DNA of 41,644 nucleotides, from positions 1-41,644 of the forward strand of contig VBDY01000124.1 in assembly GCA_005882775.1 (NCBI GenBank), written 5' to 3'. This DNA comes from Chloroflexota bacterium. Its GTDB lineage: Bacteria > Chloroflexota > Dormibacteria > CF-121. Positions 18,359 to 34,206 of the stretch are shown in pieces. Each line of letters begins with the position of its first letter. The first letter of the stretch is position 1. Below the pieces are notes generated by a model, which was not told the origin of the DNA, made no database searches, and saw nothing but the letters and a program-made list of their open reading frames with translations. A program made the translations under genes and the position numbers.

Positions 18359-18523
18359 ATGGGAATGTGGCTGCTGGTTGGCGCGATCCTGATCGCCGCG
18401 GTCGGCTACACCGCCTGGGAGTTCCGCTGGTACTGGGGCACGCTCGTCAAAACCTGGCGAAACGACGACGGTGGCAGCGAGCGCGAGCCCGACCGTGAGC
18501 TCACCGGCCACAAGAGCCACTAG
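18359..18523 (+). CDS. 54-residue membrane-anchored small protein
   Basis: The product has an N-terminal hydrophobic helix (about residues 3-20, MWLLVGAILIAAVGYTAW), an aromatic patch (EFRWYWG), and a charged tail (RNDDGGSEREPDRE). It would be a single-span protein with a short soluble end. The start is set by a promoter that leaves no room for a leader, so ATG 18359 (or the ATG two codons on) is used without a ribosome site. The stop codon TAG shares CTAG with the stop of convergent pyrE. No family is recognised. Confidence 0.6.
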   Translation: MGMWLLVGAILIAAVGYTAWEFRWYWGTLVKTWRNDDGGSEREPDRELTGHKSH

Positions 18524-19110
18524 ACCGCCGCCGGACTCGGCTTGCTCCCACGCGGAGCCGACAGTGGCGTCCCTGCCCGACACAGCGGACATGCCGATGC
18601 CGGATAGGAAGGGAACTCGACGGTAAGGCAGGCGTAAAAGGGTACCGCCAGCCGGCGGAAGCCACCGGTTCGATCACCGAGAACCCCGGCGCCGATCACG
18701 CTCCCCCCCGCGGTTTCGATGCAGGCAACCATCTCCTCGAGCGAGCCGCCGGTGGTTACGATGTCGTCGACTATCAGCACACGAGTCCCGCTGCCGACCG
18801 CGAAGCCGCGCCGCAACACCCACCCGTCGGTCGGTCCCCGCTCTGCATAGACCGCCTGGACACCGAGCTGGCGGGCGACCTCGAAGGCAAGGATGATCCC
18901 GCCGGTTGTGGGCCCGGCCACAAGCTCTACCTCGCTGTCCCGAAAACGGGCAGCGATCAGTCCGGCCAGGGCCGTCGTTGCCACCGGGTCCTCGAGGATG
19001 CGGAACTTCTCCAGGTAATCCGCCCCGTGTCGCCCACTCGTATAGACGAAATGGCCCTTCAACCAGGCGCCCGATCGCTCGAAGGCCTCGATCGCCAGCT
19101 GCTCAGACAT
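18520..19110 (-). CDS. pyrE: Orotate phosphoribosyltransferase
   Basis: This 196-residue enzyme transfers phosphoribose from PRPP to orotate, the fifth step to UMP. The PRPP loop VLIVDDIVTTGGS is at 111-123, GPTTGGI near 66-72 binds the ring side, and HFVYTSGRHGADYLEK near 20-35 matches the N-terminal substrate segment. The C-terminus carries a CPLC pair, a feature of the longer PyrE subgroup. ATG 19110 overlaps the end of pyrD by 8 bases. It is the last gene of the pyr operon, and pyrF, which would complete UMP synthesis, is not in the window. Confidence 0.94.
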   Translation of the reverse strand: MSEQLAIEAFERSGAWLKGHFVYTSGRHGADYLEKFRILEDPVATTALAGLIAARFRDSEVELVAGPTTGGIILAFEVARQLGVQAVYAERGPTDGWVLRRGFAVGSGTRVLIVDDIVTTGGSLEEMVACIETAGGSVIGAGVLGDRTGGFRRLAVPFYACLTVEFPSYPASACPLCRAGTPLSAPRGSKPSPAAV

Positions 19111-20041
19111 GGACCGCCTTCCGCCTCGGCCGCAGAGCGATGTCACCGAGGTCAGGCAGTCCTGAGTCCGCAGCGAAGGCCACAATCCCGTCGCGCACGA
19201 GGCGGGCAGCGTCTGGCCGGACATAATTCACAGTCCCCAGCTGGACGGCCGCAGCGCCGGCCAGCAAGAACTCCAGCGCATCCTCGGCGGTAAAGATCCC
19301 GCCGACGCCGACAATGGGAATCTCGACTGCGGACGCCACCTCCCAGACCGCACGCAGAGCGAGAGGCTTTATGGCCGGACCGCTGAGACCGCCCAGGCCG
19401 TTGGCGAGTGCCGGGCGCCGGCGGGCCACGTCGATGCTCATCCCAAGGTAAGTGTTGACGGCGGAGATGCTATCCGCCCCGGCCGCCTCGATGGCGCGGG
19501 CGATGCCGACCAGGTCGGTGACGTTCGGAGTCAGCTTGACCATGAGCGGCATCTCGGTCGCGGCTCGGACCGCCTCGGTTACCTGTGCCGCCAGCCGGGC
19601 GTCGACCCCGAACTGGAGTCCCGCTTCGACGTTCGGGCAAGAGATGTTGAGCTCGATTCCGGCGACGCCCGGCCGGCCGTCAAGCCGTCGGGCTACCTCG
19701 ACATAGTCCTCGATACTCTCGCCCGCAATGTTGACGATCACCGGCAGATCCCATTCGACCCACTGGGGCGCGTAGGTCTGGGCGACATAGTCGACTCCCG
19801 GATTCTGCAGGCCGATGGCGTTGAGCATGCCGGACGCCGTTTCGGCAATCCGCACAGGAGGATTGCCGGTCCGCGCGGCCCGCGTGGTTCCCTTGGTCAC
19901 CATCGCCCCGAGCGCTGAGCGGTCCACCTGCGGCGCGTCGAACCCGTAGCCGAAGGTACCGGATGCCACCATGACCGGGCTCCTCAAGCGAAGACCACGG
20001 CCCAGGTCGACGGCCAGGTCAACGGGCATGTCAGATCCCAT
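19103..20041 (-). CDS. pyrD: Dihydroorotate dehydrogenase B, catalytic subunit
   Basis: This 312-residue FMN barrel oxidises dihydroorotate to orotate. SPVMVASGTFGYG opens the barrel, NAIGLQNPG and ELNISCPNVEAG are family signatures, and Cys135 in SCPN is the active-site base that marks class 1 enzymes. C-terminal IVGVGGIFTAEDALEFLLAGA binds FMN phosphate. Class 1B enzymes work with PyrK and use NAD, which fits the pyrK gene that precedes it and overlaps its start by 11 bases. An alternative ATG at 20029 would remove the overlap. Confidence 0.94.
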   Translation of the reverse strand: MGSDMPVDLAVDLGRGLRLRSPVMVASGTFGYGFDAPQVDRSALGAMVTKGTTRAARTGNPPVRIAETASGMLNAIGLQNPGVDYVAQTYAPQWVEWDLPVIVNIAGESIEDYVEVARRLDGRPGVAGIELNISCPNVEAGLQFGVDARLAAQVTEAVRAATEMPLMVKLTPNVTDLVGIARAIEAAGADSISAVNTYLGMSIDVARRRPALANGLGGLSGPAIKPLALRAVWEVASAVEIPIVGVGGIFTAEDALEFLLAGAAAVQLGTVNYVRPDAARLVRDGIVAFAADSGLPDLGDIALRPRRKAVHV

Positions 20042-20825
20042 CCATACGGTCCCAGTCGAGCCGGTCAGCCGTCACACAGGGCCCGTCCTGACACGCCAGC
20101 AGGTAGCCGCCCCCACGCGCAGGCAGAGCGCATCCGAGGCAGGTCCCAATACCGCAGCCCATGGGCGTCTCCAGTGCAACCTGGACCCGCTCGAGGGGGA
20201 AGCCGAGCTCACGACAGGACCGGACCACGGCCAGGAGCATCTCGTTTGGCCCACACATGAAAAGCTCGACATCATCGTGAAGGGCTCTCGGTAATAGAGC
20301 CGTAACCCGACCGGTGTGTCCGGCGGAGCCGTCGTCGGTTGCGACCCGGACCTCGGCGCCCCGAAGGCGGTCCGCGGGAAGAAGCCAATCCGAAGATCTG
20401 GCACCCAGGAGCACAACAGTCCGGCGCCCGAGCCGGTCGCGCCCCTTGACCAGGCCGACGAAGGCCGCGATGCCCAGGCCGCCGGCGATGCAAACCGCGG
20501 TGCGATCCGGGCCGGGCGTCGCGAACCCGTTCCCAAGCGGACCCAGCAGCTCGACGGGTTGACCTGCTTCGCGCGCGCCCAACCAGGCACTGCCAGCTCC
20601 CACGACGCTGAAGATGAATCCGATCCGGCCGAGATCCGGGTTGGCCCAGGCGATGCTGTACGGTCGCCGAAGCAGAGTATGTTGCGCGTCCACGCCGAGT
20701 TGAAAGAACTGACCGGGCTTCGCCGCGACTGCGGCTTCCGGCTCGTGCAGTACCAGTTCTACGGCTGTCCGCATGGGCGCAGACCGCTCCAGGACGGTAG
20801 CCCGGCGAAGCGTCGCCACCGTCAT
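20031..20825 (-). CDS. pyrK: Dihydroorotate dehydrogenase B, electron-transfer subunit
   Basis: This 264-residue iron-sulphur flavoprotein passes electrons from PyrD to NAD. The FAD site has RRPYSIA (53-59), an NAD-binding Rossmann part begins near [12 protein letters not shown] (111-122), and the [2Fe-2S] ligands are Cys224, Cys229, Cys232 and Cys245 in the expected C-x4-C-x2-C-x12-C order. ATG 20825 overlaps the carAB stop by 4 bases. The frame continues upstream to 20954, but that part lies inside carAB and is not family-like. Confidence 0.93.
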
Positions 20826-23800
20826 GGCATCGCCGATTCCGGGATGCCCATCGACCGGTACTCGGTCAGAGTCGCCACCTGCCAGCGCGGATTGTGCCGG
20901 ACGTGGCGCAGCGCCTGGACCAAGGATCGGGCCGTATCCAGTGAGGTCAAGCACGGGATCCGGCGCTCGACCGAGGCGCGCCGGATCTCGTATCCGTCCC
21001 GCAGGGTCACCGGGCCAGCCTCCCGGGCGGAGCCATTTCCAGACACGGTATTCACCACCAGGTCGACGGCTCCGGAGCGGATCACGTCGATCACGTTGGG
21101 GTGGCCCTCACGAAGCTTGTCGACGGCAACGGCCTCGACGCCCGCCGCGGAGAGAAACCGCGCCGTGCCGGCGGTCGCGAATATCTTCAGCCCGAGCTCG
21201 CGCAAGGCTGCCACCACGGGCAGCGCCTCTGCCTTGTCTGCGTCTGCGATCGAGCAGAGAGCGCCGCCGTCAGGCGGCAACTCGTCCATGGTGGATAGGA
21301 AAGCCTTGTAGTGGGCGCTGGCGAGGTCTTCGGCAATGCCCATGGCTTCCCCGGTCGATTTCATCTCCGGTCCGAGCACCGCATCCACGGAGAGCAGCTT
21401 GGCCATCGAGAACACTGGTGCTTTGACAGCAAACAGGTTGCGGGCCGGGGTCAGGCCGCCCGGTTCCGGCAAGGGAATGCCCAGCGCAGCCTCGGTGGCC
21501 ATTCGAACCATGGGCACGCCGGTGACCTTGCTCAGGAAGGGCACCGTCCGGCTGGCCCGCGGGTTGACCTCCAGCACGTAGGGAACACCGTCCTGAAGGG
21601 CGAACTGCACGTTCATCAGGCCAACCACGCCGAGCCGCTGGGCAAGCGTCGTCGTGGAGGACACCACATTTGTCACCTCATCAGGCTTCAGCGAGATAGC
21701 CGGGTATACCGCGAAGGAATCCCCCGAATGGACACCAGCCCGCTCGACGTGCTCCAGGATCCCCGGAATCACGACCGTGCGGCCATCCGAGATGGCATCA
21801 ACATCGAGCTCGCGCCCAAGCAGGTACTTATCGACCAGGATGGGACCTCGCAGGCCCAGGGCGATGACCGCGTCGATGTAGCGGCGAAGATCCGAGGCCG
21901 AATGGACGATCTCCATCGCCCTGCCACCCAGTACGTACGAAGGTCGGACCACGACCGGGTAACCGACCCGAGCCGCAATCGCCAGCGCTTCCTCGGCGCT
22001 GGCGGCCGATCCACCGGGCGGACGGGGAATGCCGATCTCTCCCAGCAGGGCGTCGCAGCGCCGTCGGTCCTCGGCCAGGTCGATCGTATCCACGGTTGAA
22101 CCGAGCAGCCGGACGCCCGCTTCAGCCAGCCCGTCGGCAAGGTTTAGTCCGGTCTGCCCACCGAACTGGACGAGGACGCCGACCGGATCTTCACGACGAA
22201 GCACGTTCAGCACGCCCTCGAGGTCGAGCGGCTCGAAATAGAGGCGGCTGGAGGCATCGAAGTCGGTGCTCACCGTTTCCGGGTTGCTGTTGATGAGCAC
22301 GCTGTCGTAGCCGGCGGCCTGGAGCGCGTTTGACGCATGCACGCTGCAGTAGTCGAACTCAATCCCCTGACCGATACGGATGGGTCCCGATCCGACCACC
22401 GCCACCGGACGCCGGGTTGAGGCGAGGACCTCGTCCTCGTCTTCGAAGGTCGAGTAGTAATAGGGCGTTATCGCCTCGAACTCCGCAGCGCAGGTGTCGA
22501 CCTGCCTGAAGGTCGGCGGCATCACAGCCGGTACCGGCGCCTGGCTCAGCTCGCTGATCGAGGCATCCGAAAGGCCGGCCTGCTTTGCACGCCGGTATAG
22601 GCGCTCGTCGAGTGGTTCGGCGGCCAGCCGGCCTTCGAGTGAAACCATGCCGGCCAGACGCTGGGTGAACCAGGGCGCGTAGCCGGTGGCGCCGGAAACC
22701 TCCTCCGCAGAGAGCCCATCGCGCAGGGCCTGCAGGGCGGCAGGCAACCTGCGGTCGGTTGCTTGGTGCAAGAGATCGGAGCGACCTCGTAGCTCCGTAG
22801 CCGCCACAGGCCGCTGCTCGAGAGCCCGAAGCGCCTTGTTCAGGGCTCCCTCGAAGGTGCGCTCGATGGCCATCACCTCGCCCGTGGATTTCATCTGGGT
22901 ACCCAGCGTCCGGTCGGCGGCAGGGAACTTGTCGAACGGCCAGCGCGGAATCTTGACGACGCAGTAGTCCAGGGCCGGTTCAAAGGCGGCGCTTGTCTTC
23001 CCGGTGACCGCATTGGAAATCTCGTGCAGGTTCCGCCCGACCGCGATCTTGGCCGCTACCCGGGCGATCGGGTATCCGGTTGCCTTCGAGGCCAGCGCCG
23101 AGGAGCGGCTCACCCGGGGATTCACCTCAATCACGTAATAACCGTCGGATTCGGGGTCAAGGGCGAACTGGACGTTGCAGCCACCTTCAATCCGCAGCGC
23201 CCGGATGATGCGCAGCGCCGCCGAACGCAACATCTGTACCTGGCGGTCTGAGAGAGTCTGGCTGGGCGCGACCACAATGCTGTCGCCGGTGTGCACGCCC
23301 ATCGGGTCAAGGTTCTCCATGTTGCAGACCGCAATGCACGTGTCCTGGGCGTCGCGCATGACCTCGTACTCGATCTCCTTCCAGCCCAGCAGCGCTTGCT
23401 CCACCAGCACCTGCCGGATCGGACTGGCAGCCAGGCCTTCCTTGACCACGGCCTCCAGCTCGATCGGGGTGCCCGCCATTCCGCCACCTGTTCCCCCGAG
23501 GGTGTAGGCGGGTCGGACCACCAGAGGAAAGCCTATGTCGGCCGCGAACTCCTGCGCCTCCTCAACCGACACCACCGATCGACTCGCGGGGACCGGCTCT
23601 CCGATGCGCAGGAGCAGCTGCTTGAATGCTTCACGGTCCTCGGCGGCCCGGATGGAATCGAGCGGTGTGCCCAGAACGCGCACCGCATGGCGGTCGAGTA
23701 TGCCGGCATCAGCCATCCCGACGGCCAGGTTGAGCCCGGTCTGTCCGCCCAGGGTGGCGAGGAGTCCGTCGGGCCGCTCACGCTCGATAATGGCCTCGAG

Positions 23801-25231
23801 CGACTTCAGCGTGAGTGGCTCGATATAGATCCGGTCGGCCACGCCCTCGTCGGTCATGATGGTCGCCGGGTTCGAGTTGACCAGGATCGTGCGCACGCCC
23901 TCCTCGCGGAGCGCCTTGCATGCCTGGGTGCCGGCGTAGTCGAACTCCGCCGCCTGCCCGATCACGATCGGACCCGAGCCGATAACCAGCACAGACCTTG
24001 GCACACTACTGCCTCTATTGCGCGCGTCACGACGCGCGCTTTGGGCCGGCGGGCCCGGCTCGGGCCTGGATCGGCCCGCGCCTCCGGTAACGCGCGCGAT
24101 AGAGGCAGTGCTGGGCAACAGGTCCAGGAACTCGTCGAAGATGCCCTGGTTGTCCTGGGGACCCGGTGCGCCTTCGGGGTGGAACTGCACCGACCGCACC
24201 GGCAGCGAGCGATGTGACAGGCCCTCGACCGATCCATCGTGGAGGTTGCGATGGCTGACGTAGAATCCCTCAGCCTCGGAAAGGCCGGCGGGGTCCACCT
24301 CGAACTCGTGGTTCTGCGAGGTGATGGTGACTTTCCCGCTCCGCACGTCCATCACAGGGTGGTTCCCACCATGGTGGCCGAAGCGAAGGCGGCGGGTGCG
24401 TGCTCCGGCCGCCTGGCCGATCAGCTGATGACCCAGGCAGATACCGAGCAAGGGGATCCGGCCGATTAATGCGCGGGTGACCGCGACCGCCGGCTGAAGG
24501 CGTGCCGGATCGCCCGGCCCATTGGAGAGGACGACACCGTCCGGCTTGCGCGAGAGAATGGCTTCGACGCTAGCGTCATACGGCACCACGTCGACGGTGA
24601 GGCCACGCGAGCGCAACGAGCGCAGGATGTTCCGCTTGACGCCGAAGTCGACCAGCACCAGCCGCACGCCGGGCCACTGTCGCGATACGTCATGCGCAAT
24701 GGCGGGGTCGATCGGCTCGTCCACGTCGACGAACGCCCCGGAGACCTCTTTGACCAGGTCCTGCTCCTCAAGGGACGGGACGCCGCGGGCTCGCGCCACC
24801 AACGATTCGAGGTCCGCCGCGTCGTTTACGGTCACGATCACCCCACGCTGGGCGCCGGTCCCGCGTAGATGGCGCACCAAGCGCCGCGTATCGACGCCCG
24901 TGAGAATCGGCACACCGTAACTGTCCAACCACTCGCGGACTGACCCGTCCCGGCGCCAGTGCTGGTCGTCGGGACTGAGACTGCGGGTGATCAAGGCCCG
25001 CACCCATGGCCGGCCCGACTCCAGAAAGGCTTGACTGACTCCGTAGTTGCCGATCAAGGGGTAGGTCATGACCACCAGCTGGCCGGCATACGACGGATCC
25101 GACAGGACCTCCTGGTACCCGCTCATGCATGTGTTGAAAACGACCTCGCCTCCGGCATCGGTGGCGCTGCCTCCACGTTCACCCGAAAGCATGAAGCCGT
25201 CTTCGAGCACGAGCAGCATGCGCTCAGGCAA
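20822..25231 (-). CDS. carAB: Fused carbamoyl-phosphate synthase (CarA-CarB)
   Basis: A single 1469-residue frame contains both subunits, which make carbamoyl phosphate from glutamine, bicarbonate and ATP. CarA is residues 1-374: the GATase triad is Cys265 (LGICLGHQ), His351 and Glu353 (FHPEG). CarB is 410-1469: two ATP-grasp halves, each opening with V-x-GSGPI-x-IGQ, an oligomerisation part, and a C-terminal MGS domain for allosteric control. Residues 375-408 form a Pro/Arg/Gly-rich linker encoded by a 102-bp inverted-repeat segment. The TTG start has GGAGG 6 bases upstream and overlaps the pyrC stop. GTG 24004 (residue 410), with AGAGG 7 bases upstream, could also start a separate CarB. Bacteria usually keep these genes separate. 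Confidence 0.93.
24008..24109. repeat. 102-bp inverted-repeat element at the CarA-CarB junction
   Basis: Arms at 24008-24027 and 24090-24109 are complementary at 19 of 20 positions. The space between them is very GC-rich, and an extra perfect hairpin (arms GCGCGT/ACGCGC) lies next to the left arm. The segment is 102 bases long, exactly 34 codons, and matches the extra residues 375-408 between the two enzyme halves. In the carAB mRNA it would form a long stem whose 3' strand holds AGAGG, a possible ribosome site for internal initiation at GTG 24004. No target-site duplication or second copy was found in the window. Confidence 0.75.
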
Positions 25232-26375
25232 CTGCTACCTCCGCGCCATGCACCACTTTGCCCCCGACGACGGTCATGACGACGCGGCCGCGCATGCGCC
25301 GGCCCTTCAGCGGTGTGTTGTGCCCGCGGCTATAGAAGGATTCGGGCTCGACCAGCCACTCCTGGTCGGGATCGATCAGGATCCACTCGTCGAGGAGCTC
25401 CTGGCCGAGGATGCGGCGGGGCCCGGCGACGCATGCTCGGTGGACGACCTCCCAGGGCAGTCCCAGTGTCAGCACCGTGGCCAGCGCCGTCTCGAAACCG
25501 TGCAGACCGTAAGCCGCAGTTTCCTCGTCATGCTTCACCGCGTCCTCGTGGGGTGCGTGGTCGGTCGCAATCACATCGACGATGCCGTCGATGAGCGCGT
25601 CGCGAAGGGCGATCGCATCCGCGGCGGTACGTAGGGGCGGATTGACCTTGGCAAGCGGACCGCTGATTCGTAGCTCCGCTGCCGTCAGCGCGAGGTGATG
25701 AGGCGTGACCTCGGCTGTCAGGCGCAGTCCGGCTCCCTTGGCAGCCGCGATCAGGCCGATGCTTCCCTGGGTGCTGACATGTTGCAGATGGAGGTGGGCA
25801 TCCGCGGTGCGCCGCAACGCTTCGATGGCTTCGCGAATCGCCTCGACCTCCGCAGCCGGCTCCGTGCCGAGTCGCTCGAGCTGGGGATGGATCAGGACGG
25901 GAAGGCCGGCACCTCCGGCGCGCCAGAGACCGACCTCGAGCAGTCCTGCCTCGAGCGCGTGGCGGCCGTCATCCGAAAGGGCGACCGCGCCAGCGGATTT
26001 CAGAGCCCGGGCGTCGGTCAACGAATCGCCGGTCAGACCCTTGGTGAGCGCACCCACGAAGTCGACCTTGATCGGCAGCGCCTCGGACCGACGGCGGAGC
26101 TCGGTAAGGCGGCCGGCCGAGTCCGTGGGCGGATCGGTGTTCGCCATGGCAACCACGTGGGTGAACCCACCGGCGGCTGCACTTCGGGCCCCAGTCTCGA
26201 GCGTTTCCTTCTGCGGAGCCCCCGGGTCCCGCAGATGCGCATGCAGGTCCATCCACCCGGGCGAGAGGACGAGGCCCCGCGCGTCGCGATCGGGCTCGTC
26301 TCCGGCAGCGATGTAGAAGGTGTCCGGCGCGCTCAATCCGTTCGATCGGAGCAGCCGGGCGTGGTGCAGCCGCAT
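25224..26375 (-). CDS. pyrC: Dihydroorotase
   Basis: This 383-residue amidohydrolase closes carbamoyl-aspartate to dihydroorotate. The metal motif [10 protein letters not shown] (His45, His47) is the type I dihydroorotase signature. GALTKG, SDDGRH and the strand-8 ATDHAPH follow in order. As in the Bacillus/Aquifex group, the SDDG aspartate stands where other dihydroorotases have a carboxylated lysine. Its ATG overlaps the pyrR stop by one base (TGATG), and its end overlaps the carAB start by 8 bases. Confidence 0.94.
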
Positions 26376-26920
26376 CAGGCGCCGTCCCGCTCGAGGATCC
26401 TGACCGAGTCCTCGCCATCGATCTCGCTAAGGTGCACTTCCACCCATTCCTGCCGGGACGTCGGCACGTTCTTTCCTACGTAGTCCGGACGGATTGGCAG
26501 TTCGCGGTGACCTCGGTCAACCAGCACCGCCAGCTGGATCAGCAGCGGCCTGCCGGCGGCGACCACGGCATCTACCGCCGCTCTCGCCGTCCGGCCGTTG
26601 AAGAGAACGTCGTCCACCAGCAGCACCGGGCGATCCTTTACTCGATCGGCCGGCAGCGCCGGCGGTGGCGCCTGAGACCGGGGCAGGTCATCGCGGTAGC
26701 CACGCACGTCGAGCGGAATCACGGGCGGCGCGATCCCCTCGAGCTCGTGCAGGAGCTGGGCCAGACGTTGCGCCAGCGGAACGCCCCTGGTGACGATCCC
26801 GAGGATGGTCAGGCGCTCCAGGTCGGGCTGCCGCTCGATGATCTCGTGGGCGATCCGCCTCAACGACCGGCGAATGCCGTCGCCGTCGAGGATGACGGCC
26901 TTCGGCGTAGACATGATCAC
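26375..26920 (-). CDS. pyrR: PyrR, pyr operon RNA-binding regulator / uracil phosphoribosyltransferase
   Basis: This 181-residue PRTase-fold protein binds a specific mRNA hairpin when UMP is high and represses pyr genes; many members also make UMP from uracil. The PRPP loop VLLVDDVLFNGRT is at 99-111 (the usual Thr before Gly is Asn here), and the C-terminal VLVDRGHRELPIRPDYVGKNVPTS block is diagnostic. The GTG start overlaps the pyrB stop by 4 bases; ATG 26914 is an alternative. It is the second gene rather than the first of the operon. Its predicted RNA target lies at 27877-27907, over the pyrB ribosome site. Confidence 0.95.
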   Translation of the reverse strand: MIMSTPKAVILDGDGIRRSLRRIAHEIIERQPDLERLTILGIVTRGVPLAQRLAQLLHELEGIAPPVIPLDVRGYRDDLPRSQAPPPALPADRVKDRPVLLVDDVLFNGRTARAAVDAVVAAGRPLLIQLAVLVDRGHRELPIRPDYVGKNVPTSRQEWVEVHLSEIDGEDSVRILERDGA

Positions 26921-27870
26921 GTGCCCATCGCCAGCCAGTACAGGACCGCCATCCGGACAAAGAGACCGTTTCGCGCCTGCCGGAAATAGGCCGCCCGCGG
27001 GTCGCTATCGACCGACTCATCGATCTCGTCGAGTCGTGGCAGTGGATGCATCACGATGGCGTGCTCTGGCAACCGGCGCATCAGGGCTGCATCAACCCTT
27101 GAGACGGACCGCACCTGGTCGTACTCGGTGACGGATGCGAACCGCTCCCGCTGGATGCGAGTCTGGTAGAGCACATCAGCACCCGCCGCCGCCGCCGACA
27201 GGTCACGCTCGTCGCGGATGCTGACTCCGGTGCGATGCAATTGGTGCCGGACGTCCTCCCCCAGGCGCAGCTCGTCTGGGGAGACCAGGGTGAGCTGGTT
27301 GCCTGGATAGCGAGCGAGCAACAGGGCCAACGAGCGGGCTGTTCGCCCGAACTTCAGGTCGCCTGACATCACGATCCGCAGGTGGTCGAGGCGTCCACAC
27401 TCTTTCTTGATCGTGTAGAGGTCCAGCAGAGCCTGGGTCGGGTGGTGACCCGCGCCGTCGCCGGCGTTGACAAGGGGGACGGGCGAGACCCGAGCGGCGC
27501 GTTCCGCCGCGCCGATCTCGGGATGCCTGAGGACGATCAGGTCCGCGTAGCCGCCGATGATGCGCACCGCATCCTCGAGTGACTCGCCTTTTGCCGCGGA
27601 CGATCCGGTCGCGGCGCTCTCGACGCTGATCACCTGGCCCCCCAGGCGCAGCATGGCGGCCTCGAACGAGAATCGCGTCCGGGTGCTCGGTTCGTAGAAG
27701 ACGCTGGCCATGATCCTGCCCCGCAGCGGTGCCTGGGCCGGAGATTGCCCCTGCCGCTCCATGTCGCTCGCAAGCGCAAGCAAACTCTCAACCAGGGGAA
27801 GATCGAGGTCAGAAGGGCTGACCAGGTGCCGCGCCGGGGCGGCGGTCGGGGCGACCAGACTATCGCTCAC
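26917..27870 (-). CDS. pyrB: Aspartate carbamoyltransferase catalytic subunit
   Basis: This 317-residue enzyme joins carbamoyl phosphate to aspartate, the committed step to pyrimidines. STRTR at 62-66 (within FYEPSTRTRFSFE) binds carbamoyl phosphate, SSAAKGES supplies the loop from the neighbouring subunit, HPTQALLDLYTI and MHPLPR complete the site. No regulatory chain (pyrI) is present, so the catalytic trimer probably works unregulated or in a Bacillus-like form. It is the first gene of the pyr operon, starting at GTG 27870 with AAGGAG upstream. That ribosome site lies in the stem of the predicted PyrR hairpin. Confidence 0.95.
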   Translation of the reverse strand: MSDSLVAPTAAPARHLVSPSDLDLPLVESLLALASDMERQGQSPAQAPLRGRIMASVFYEPSTRTRFSFEAAMLRLGGQVISVESAATGSSAAKGESLEDAVRIIGGYADLIVLRHPEIGAAERAARVSPVPLVNAGDGAGHHPTQALLDLYTIKKECGRLDHLRIVMSGDLKFGRTARSLALLLARYPGNQLTLVSPDELRLGEDVRHQLHRTGVSIRDERDLSAAAAGADVLYQTRIQRERFASVTEYDQVRSVSRVDAALMRRLPEHAIVMHPLPRLDEIDESVDSDPRAAYFRQARNGLFVRMAVLYWLAMGT

Positions 27871-27876
27871 GGATTC

Positions 27877-27907
27877 TCCTTGCGGTCTCTCTGGGCCGTT
27901 TAAAGGA
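27877..27907 (-). promoter_or_regulatory. PyrR-binding RNA hairpin overlapping the pyrB ribosome site
   Basis: On the mRNA strand a lower stem TCCTT/AAGGA, an asymmetric internal loop (TAAA opposite C), an upper stem CGG/CCG and the terminal loop CCCAGAGAGA can be drawn. The Bacillus PyrR sites have the same plan, with loop TCCAGAGAGG; 8 of 10 loop bases agree. The 3' strand of the lower stem is the Shine-Dalgarno sequence of pyrB. Binding would therefore block translation, as described for mycobacterial PyrR, rather than cause transcription termination. No terminator hairpin was found in the leader. Confidence 0.75.
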
Positions 27908-32961: not shown

Positions 32962-33993
32962 TCAGGCGGCGCCGAGAGCTTCCGTTGAAGCCACCAGCAC
33001 CGGCGGGCGGCGCTCCTTCGTCCAGTTCAGAGACAAAATCACCCCCAGGAGCAGCGCCGTCCCGACCACCTGGGCCGGGAAATAGAAAGGTTGCCCAAAG
33101 CCCCAGGGATAGGGCAAAGCGGCAAGAAGCTGGATGGTGACGGGCAGGGTGAGCTCCGCAATCGTGGCAAGCGATGCGGGCGTGCTGACCAGGCCGCGGT
33201 AATAGATGAGAAGGCCGATCACGCCGGGAACGATCGCGATGTACAGGAAGTTGGGCAGGAAGTACGACAGCTGATAGTGGCTGAAGCCGCTCAGACCACC
33301 CTCGATCAGGACGATCGCAACCAGGACCGGCAGCGCCACAGTGAAGCGCAGAGCAGTCGTGGTTTGAAAGCTCAGGTCGCGGAGCACAAAGCGACCGAAG
33401 ACGGTGCCAGCCGCCCATAGCACCGCTGCGCCCAGGCCTTCCAGCCCTGCCACCAGACGAGTGTCCGCCGTCCCGGCCAGCTGCCCTCCTTGCAGAACGG
33501 CCAGCGGTTCACCGGGATCACGCGCAAACACCACCAGATACACGCCCACCATGCCCACGGCGGCGAGAGGCCAGAACCAGGGACGGCGTCGCTCGCCCAG
33601 GATGATCCAGGCGAGGGCGATGGCAATCAACGGTTGGGTCTGCTGGGCGATATATGTGACCGCGAATACGTGATGGGCAAAGGACTTGGTAAAGAGCCAG
33701 GTGGCAATCGCCTGCGGCCCGACGCCGATGATCAGGACGCCGAGCCAGCGCGAACCGGTAAGGCTACGAAGCTCGGCGAAGCCGCGGATCAGGAATGGCA
33801 GCAGGATGAGGGTGACCAGGGCGTCCTCCATGACGACGATCTGCGAGGCAGAGAGGTGCTCTGTCAGAGGGTTCCTGAAGTACGCGTCCGAGACCCAGAG
33901 GATGGCGGCAAACGCGATCAAAAGGACTGAGAAGCGATCCGGAAAACTCTGTCGCCGAGACGCCGGGTGGGTCTTGCGTGCCGTCGCCGCCAT
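32962..33993 (-). CDS. EamA-family transporter, predicted riboflavin importer (RibN-like)
   Basis: This membrane protein of about 343 residues has ten hydrophobic helices in two repeated EamA halves, the drug/metabolite transporter fold. Helix 3-4 with GVGPQAIATWLF and the LGERRRPWF loop are typical. The EamA family alone does not tell the substrate, but the gene lies directly downstream of an FMN riboswitch, as do the RibN riboflavin importers of this family. ATG 33993 has GGGAG 6 bases upstream; the ATG one codon earlier is possible. It is downstream of purH on the same strand. Confidence 0.88.
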   Translation of the reverse strand: MAATARKTHPASRRQSFPDRFSVLLIAFAAILWVSDAYFRNPLTEHLSASQIVVMEDALVTLILLPFLIRGFAELRSLTGSRWLGVLIIGVGPQAIATWLFTKSFAHHVFAVTYIAQQTQPLIAIALAWIILGERRRPWFWPLAAVGMVGVYLVVFARDPGEPLAVLQGGQLAGTADTRLVAGLEGLGAAVLWAAGTVFGRFVLRDLSFQTTTALRFTVALPVLVAIVLIEGGLSGFSHYQLSYFLPNFLYIAIVPGVIGLLIYYRGLVSTPASLATIAELTLPVTIQLLAALPYPWGFGQPFYFPAQVVGTALLLGVILSLNWTKERRPPVLVASTEALGAA

Positions 33994-34055
33994 CATGCAC
34001 TCCCGGACATCGGGGCAGAAATTGAGCGGTGCGCTAGCGCGCCAGCCGCCCTAGG

Positions 34056-34182
34056 GGTCTTCTTCCATCCCGACTTTACGGTCGGCCCCGGAGTTGGGCT
34101 CTAGCCTTCACCGGATCATGCGATGTCGATCGCTCGCGGGCTTTACCGCCGATCGGGGAGTCTCACCCCTGCCCCGAAGACC
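34056..34182 (-). promoter_or_regulatory. FMN riboswitch (RFN element)
   Basis: Read on the minus strand, the conserved RFN blocks occur in order: CGGGGCAGGGGTGA, GGCGGTAAAGCCCGCGAGC, ATCCGGTGAAGGC, CCGACCGTAAAGTCGG and GGATGGAAGAAG. A perfect 7-pair P1 stem joins GGTCTTC (34176-34182) and GAAGACC (34056-34062). The next gene is the EamA transporter. Between them a GCGC/GCGC-centred hairpin (about 34027-34050) could be part of the expression platform. There is no long T-run, so translation control is the more likely mode. FMN should lower expression. Confidence 0.93.
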
Positions 34183-34206
34183 TGAAGCAACAATAACAAG
34201 TTCGGG

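Follow-up and report, generated by a model that had tools for sequence, protein, structure and literature searches.

A conserved PyrR-type hairpin contains the Shine-Dalgarno sequence of a pyrB-first pyr operon in an uncultured class of Chloroflexota and is a probable translational operator

We analysed a stretch of 41,644 nucleotides from a Chloroflexota bacterium (contig VBDY01000124.1, referred to here as the window), which carries a pyr operon with the gene order pyrB, pyrR, pyrC, fused carAB, pyrK, pyrD and pyrE (Table 1). The initial annotation had described a pyrB-first operon with PyrR encoded by the second gene and a fused carAB further downstream, and profile searches bore this out. 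PyrB scored 324 bits against TIGR00670 (cut-off 237). The product of the second gene scored 215 bits against NF003549 (cut-off 138), was the sole protein in the genome above that cut-off, and gave matches to PyrR chains in the PDB down to 3e-54, while the CarA-CarB fusion is 1469 amino acids long. The pyrB/pyrR junction reads TGAtcATG, with the ATG of pyrR 2 nt past the pyrB stop codon, and pyrR should therefore be shut off together with pyrB. At the pyrR/pyrC junction (TGATG) the start of pyrC overlaps the pyrR stop, and carAB likely starts at the ATG 4 nt past the pyrC stop (TGAgcgcATG). For pyrK and pyrE, translation probably begins inside the listed open reading frames rather than at their first codons. 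In one relative, pyrR was split into two matches by an internal stop codon (G014:C37:8921-9341), which reflects either a sequencing error or a decayed gene.

Table 1. Features of the pyr operon and its leader in the window.
Feature	Position	Strand	Basis
PyrR-type hairpin	27877..27907	-	Sequence; out-of-sample covariance model; class-wide conservation; f3 covariation
Shine-Dalgarno AAGGAG of pyrB, 3' arm of lower stem	27876..27881	-	Sequence; 5 nt before GTG
Conserved -10-like box TAAACT, 16 nt before CUUUAA	27922..27927	-	Conservation in most f1 leaders
pyrB, first in the operon, with GTG start; aspartate carbamoyltransferase	26917..27870	-	Pfam/NCBIfam
pyrR, regulator/uracil phosphoribosyltransferase	26375..26914	-	NF003549, PDB PyrR matches
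pyrC, dihydroorotase	25224..26375	-	NCBIfam/Pfam; start overlaps pyrR stop
Fused carA-carB, carbamoyl-phosphate synthase	20822..25231	-	Pfam/NCBIfam; junction
pyrK, pyrD, pyrE	18520..20954 (ORFs 20031-20954, 19103-20041, 18520-19224)	-	Pfam/NCBIfam

The leader of pyrB contains a sequence with the anatomy of a PyrR site (UCCUUUAAACGGCCCAGAGAGACCGCAAGGA, minus strand 27907-27877), and the slightly longer segment CGUCCUUUAAACGGCCCAGAGAGACCGCAAGGAG (27909-27876) is followed by AAUCC and then by the pyrB GTG at 27870. The lower stem of the hairpin is UCCUU/AAGGA and the upper stem is CGG/CCG, with a C-G pair closing a terminal AGAGA loop and with UAAA as a 5' internal loop of the UUAAA type. PyrR recognizes the terminal loop, the top of the upper stem and an internal bulge, with the consensus ARUCCAGAGAGGYU (PMC7430163), and these determinants are mostly present in the window hairpin. 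The CC-NGNGA-G core, comprising the terminal loop and the top of the upper stem, is found as CCAGAGAG. The bulge and the pair next to it differ from the Bacillus consensus, reading CCC...GACC with a C.A mismatch. As in other PyrR elements, it lies beside pyr genes and a cognate pyrR gene.

The 3' arm of the lower stem is also the Shine-Dalgarno (SD) sequence of pyrB, and the start codon follows just after it, which is a trait of operators of the mycobacterial type. No intrinsic terminator or T-run was found between the window hairpin and the start codon, and the sole terminator-like site lies within pyrB. Thus, a two-stem PyrR-like hairpin with the core loop, a lower stem that pairs with the ribosome site of pyrB and a leader without a terminator, all proposed earlier for this locus, were recovered here. 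Among the hairpins whose energies we computed in the window's own family (f1) and a sister family (f3), that of the window is the weakest, at -5.3 kcal/mol, the others ranging from -7.6 to -15.4 kcal/mol. The TAAACT box upstream, together with its distance from the hairpin, is common to most f1 leaders, and its position predicts a very short leader. A generic sigma-70 consensus scan of the window leader returned no promoter, and the assignment of this putative -10 box therefore relies on conservation.

The folding energy of the window sequence alone was unremarkable (z of -0.10 to +1.07), and chance therefore had to be excluded by comparison. An Rfam scan of the window gave no match to RF00515 at the curated cut-off of 54 bits, placing the site outside that family as it is defined. 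Since neither folding energy nor Rfam was informative in the window, we built a covariance model (R1), trained only on 20 hairpins from f3, with the window's family outside the training set. The site was the best match of this model in the window (28.8 bits, E = 1.5e-7; next match, E = 0.4), and it ranked first in the whole 2.85-Mb genome (E = 1e-5; next match, 0.15), which argues strongly that it did not arise by chance. The best genome-wide match stands at pyrB, with one site per genome. A strict loop pattern matched in 44 of 110 genomes of the class, and reversed controls gave no match. A second match to a loose pattern in the genome of the window (C117:16484) was absent from the list of R1 matches and was taken as chance.

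The initial annotation had suggested examining related pyrB leaders for conservation and covariation. Ninety leaders were collected from the class, and a PyrR-type loop was present ahead of pyrB in all 88 in which the hairpin region was readable; a few f3 leaders had shifted loop letters, for example CACGGUGAUG. AAGGAG in the 3' arm, followed by the start codon, was found in each of the 55 f1 and f3 leaders scored. In the upper stem of f3, five pairs were double-changed, giving 15 cells, a result seen in none of 500 shuffles and compared with at most 4 cells in slid controls. Four of the five pairs of the f3 lower stem were invariant, as expected of a segment that must serve both as SD and as stem, and the lower stem therefore showed no covariation of its own. 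These counts were made only on the equal-length f3 hairpins, because a first MAFFT alignment (A1) of hairpins of mixed length placed the lower stem out of register. Two stems and a 5' internal loop with compensatory change, as in a PyrR element, are thus seen in f3, and the related leaders spoke for the hairpin on both counts. We also observed that pyrB adjoins and precedes pyrR in the large majority of those genomes of the class that have both genes, a class-wide rule that goes beyond what had been noted for this operon, and that genomes without a pyrB match mostly had no pyrR match either. Taken together, these sequence comparisons confirm that a conserved PyrR-type hairpin at the start of the operon is real.

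Two leaders of the class (L199 in G094 and L180 in G089) have a different organization, in that the hairpin SD belongs to a short reading frame, ~26-28 codons in length. This frame closes 2 nt short of a second start codon, which is in frame with pyrB, and it looks like a leader peptide derived from a partial duplication.

On this basis, we consider it very probable that the leader is a PyrR-binding RNA acting as a translational operator. When UMP is plentiful, the PyrR-UMP complex would bind the loop, the upper stem and the 5' internal loop, and clamp the otherwise weak hairpin shut. Because the 3' arm is the pyrB SD, the closed hairpin would hide it and bar ribosomes from initiating on pyrB. 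Expression of pyrR, pyrC and carAB would fall with that of pyrB through translational coupling, perhaps aided by Rho polarity, so that PyrR would repress its own operon. When UMP is scarce, PyrR would be released, the hairpin would open and the operon would be translated. We infer PyrR binding, its dependence on UMP, repression at the level of translation and coupling from what is established for PyrR (PMC7430163; Fields and Switzer, 2007).

The same loop motif drives transcription attenuation in Bacillus (PMC7430163), where PyrR binding makes a downstream leader terminator form, and such a mode could be considered here too. Leaders of f3 (for example L018, L019, L022 and L030) have a run of 5-6 T between the SD-bearing arm and the start codon, and this feature is nearly specific to pyrB: GGAGRTTTTTTNRTG occurs only once or twice per f3 genome, and all 8 genomes that were tested had it at pyrB. 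The run might be a pause site or a weak terminator beside the PyrR hairpin. However, the window has neither a terminator nor a T-run in this region, and its hairpin ends 5-6 nt before the GTG, too close for an antiterminator/terminator pair to fit in between. Attenuation is therefore a very improbable mode of control for this operon.

A second possibility is that a 5' antisequestor frees the SD when PyrR is not bound, making the window leader a two-state switch as well. A candidate antisequestor, GGGACcuucGUCC, is found in genus g4, whose leaders show GGAC/GUCC complementarity beside the 5' arm, and it is partially present in the window. Nevertheless, G001 and G002 have the element in weak form or not at all, and the cost of opening the SD was not clearly lower than with shuffled upstream sequence (4.93 versus 5.20 kcal/mol in f1; 4.33 versus 4.37 kcal/mol in f3). 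Opening costs thus lend no support to a 5' antisequestor in f1 and f3, and we regard this reading of the window as very unlikely. Finally, it is barely conceivable that the site is no PyrR site but a hairpin formed by chance, or simply an SD, since the out-of-sample model match in window and genome, the empty reversed controls and the class-wide conservation at pyrB outweigh an unremarkable folding energy and the missing Rfam match.

We then compared direct occlusion of the SD by a PyrR hairpin, the reading we favour, with known systems. PyrR-dependent translational repression has been reported for Mycobacterium smegmatis (Fields and Switzer, 2007, J Bacteriol 189:6236, as cited in PMC13328217 and PMC6455119), and the initial annotation had likened the window to this mode. 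Leaders of Actinobacteria, including one from a Mycobacterium MAG (L104), read CCUUU...CCCGUGAG...AAGGAGG, followed by the start codon, directly before pyrR as the first gene. This shared placement of the SD in the stem substantiates the likeness, and argues for grouping the window site with the translational operators of mycobacteria. In both systems, the SD of the first gene forms the 3' arm of a PyrR-type hairpin, the leader lacks a terminator, and PyrR is encoded in the operon. In contrast to the pyrR-first M. smegmatis type, the window has pyrB first and pyrR second, a fused carAB, and belongs to the phylum Chloroflexota. The pyr attenuators of Bacillus (anti-antiterminator, RF00515) share with the window the determinants of the PyrR-bound loop and stem, but the window has no antiterminator or terminator and its hairpin ends beside the start codon.

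Hairpins of the direct layout, ending in AAGGAG, were found in 93 of 400 sampled Chloroflexota genomes, the window's class included, compared with 2 matches in the reversed control. At sampled loci with a pyr match outside the class, the hairpin is followed by pyrR and then by pyrB; these sites resemble that of the window in the AAGGAG of the 3' arm, whereas the class is pyrB-first. The PyrB proteins of the class form a long branch separate from those of Actinobacteria and other Chloroflexota, which served as the outgroup of the tree. Since this branch stands apart from the pyrR-first lineages, the pyrB that precedes pyrR in the class may have come in as a replacement and taken the PyrR leader over. 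In other Chloroflexota (L203-L224), the SD-bearing hairpin precedes the PyrR match by ~50-360 nt or more, so that a leader peptide or an N-terminal extension could fit in between. RF00515 scored 32.5-49.9 bits on the relatives L017, L018, L203, L221 and L223 (cut-off 54), and standard annotation would therefore miss such PyrR sites; across the scanned sample, operators of the class were either below the cut-off or without a score.

Two further sister families, f2 and f4, have a different layout, in which ~80-125 nt lie between the hairpin and the downstream coding match, and a distinct GGAGG, downstream of the hairpin, serves as the SD. We computed partition functions for these leaders and compared the cost of opening the SD when the PyrR hairpin was forced with that when its 5' strand was blocked. 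Forcing the hairpin raised the cost by a mean of 3.8 kcal/mol in 33 leaders, against 0.8 kcal/mol with shuffled linkers. With one leader per genus, the means were 4.1 and 1.0 kcal/mol, respectively, and the Fisher combined p of 3e-6 is optimistic because the genera are related; 8 of 13 genera individually reached p ≤0.05, and five (g9, g15, g25, g28 and g31) were above it. In G042 and G030, CCUCCUC pairs with the SD (GAGGAGG) when the hairpin is formed, and GGCAAGG pairs with CCUUGCC when its 5' strand is blocked. The free minimum-energy fold was the hairpin state in G042 and G030, and the alternative state in G048, G036 and G080.

The higher predicted cost of SD opening with the hairpin forced suggests that a Bacillus-style alternative pairing controls an SD sequestor in f2 and f4. 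A hairpin closed by PyrR would release a downstream CCUUGCC-like element to pair with the real SD, and in the open state the 3' arm of the hairpin would pair with that element and leave the SD free. This logic resembles that of the Bacillus attenuators, with an SD sequestor replacing the terminator. It is somewhat more likely than not that one PyrR hairpin has two translational wirings within the class, namely direct hiding of the SD in f1 and f3 and an anti-antisequestor in f2 and f4. The latter families, which form a weakly supported group (76) in the PyrB tree, appear to have rebuilt the direct hairpin into a two-state RNA switch. Such a conversion could have occurred as the old SD arm became a competitor for a new anti-SD.

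These observations would extend translational control by PyrR to an uncultured class of Chloroflexota, and they yield a set of ~88 naturally varying copies of a single short operator with the cognate pyrR genes next to them. The presence of two layouts in one class offers a clean natural comparison of direct occlusion with an alternative-pairing switch, and the alternative-pairing layout of f2 and f4 is a more novel lead than the window site itself. Elsewhere in the window, an FMN riboswitch (86.3 bits; 34053-34185, minus strand) precedes a gene for an EamA-family transporter (32962-33996, minus strand), which is likely a riboflavin importer.
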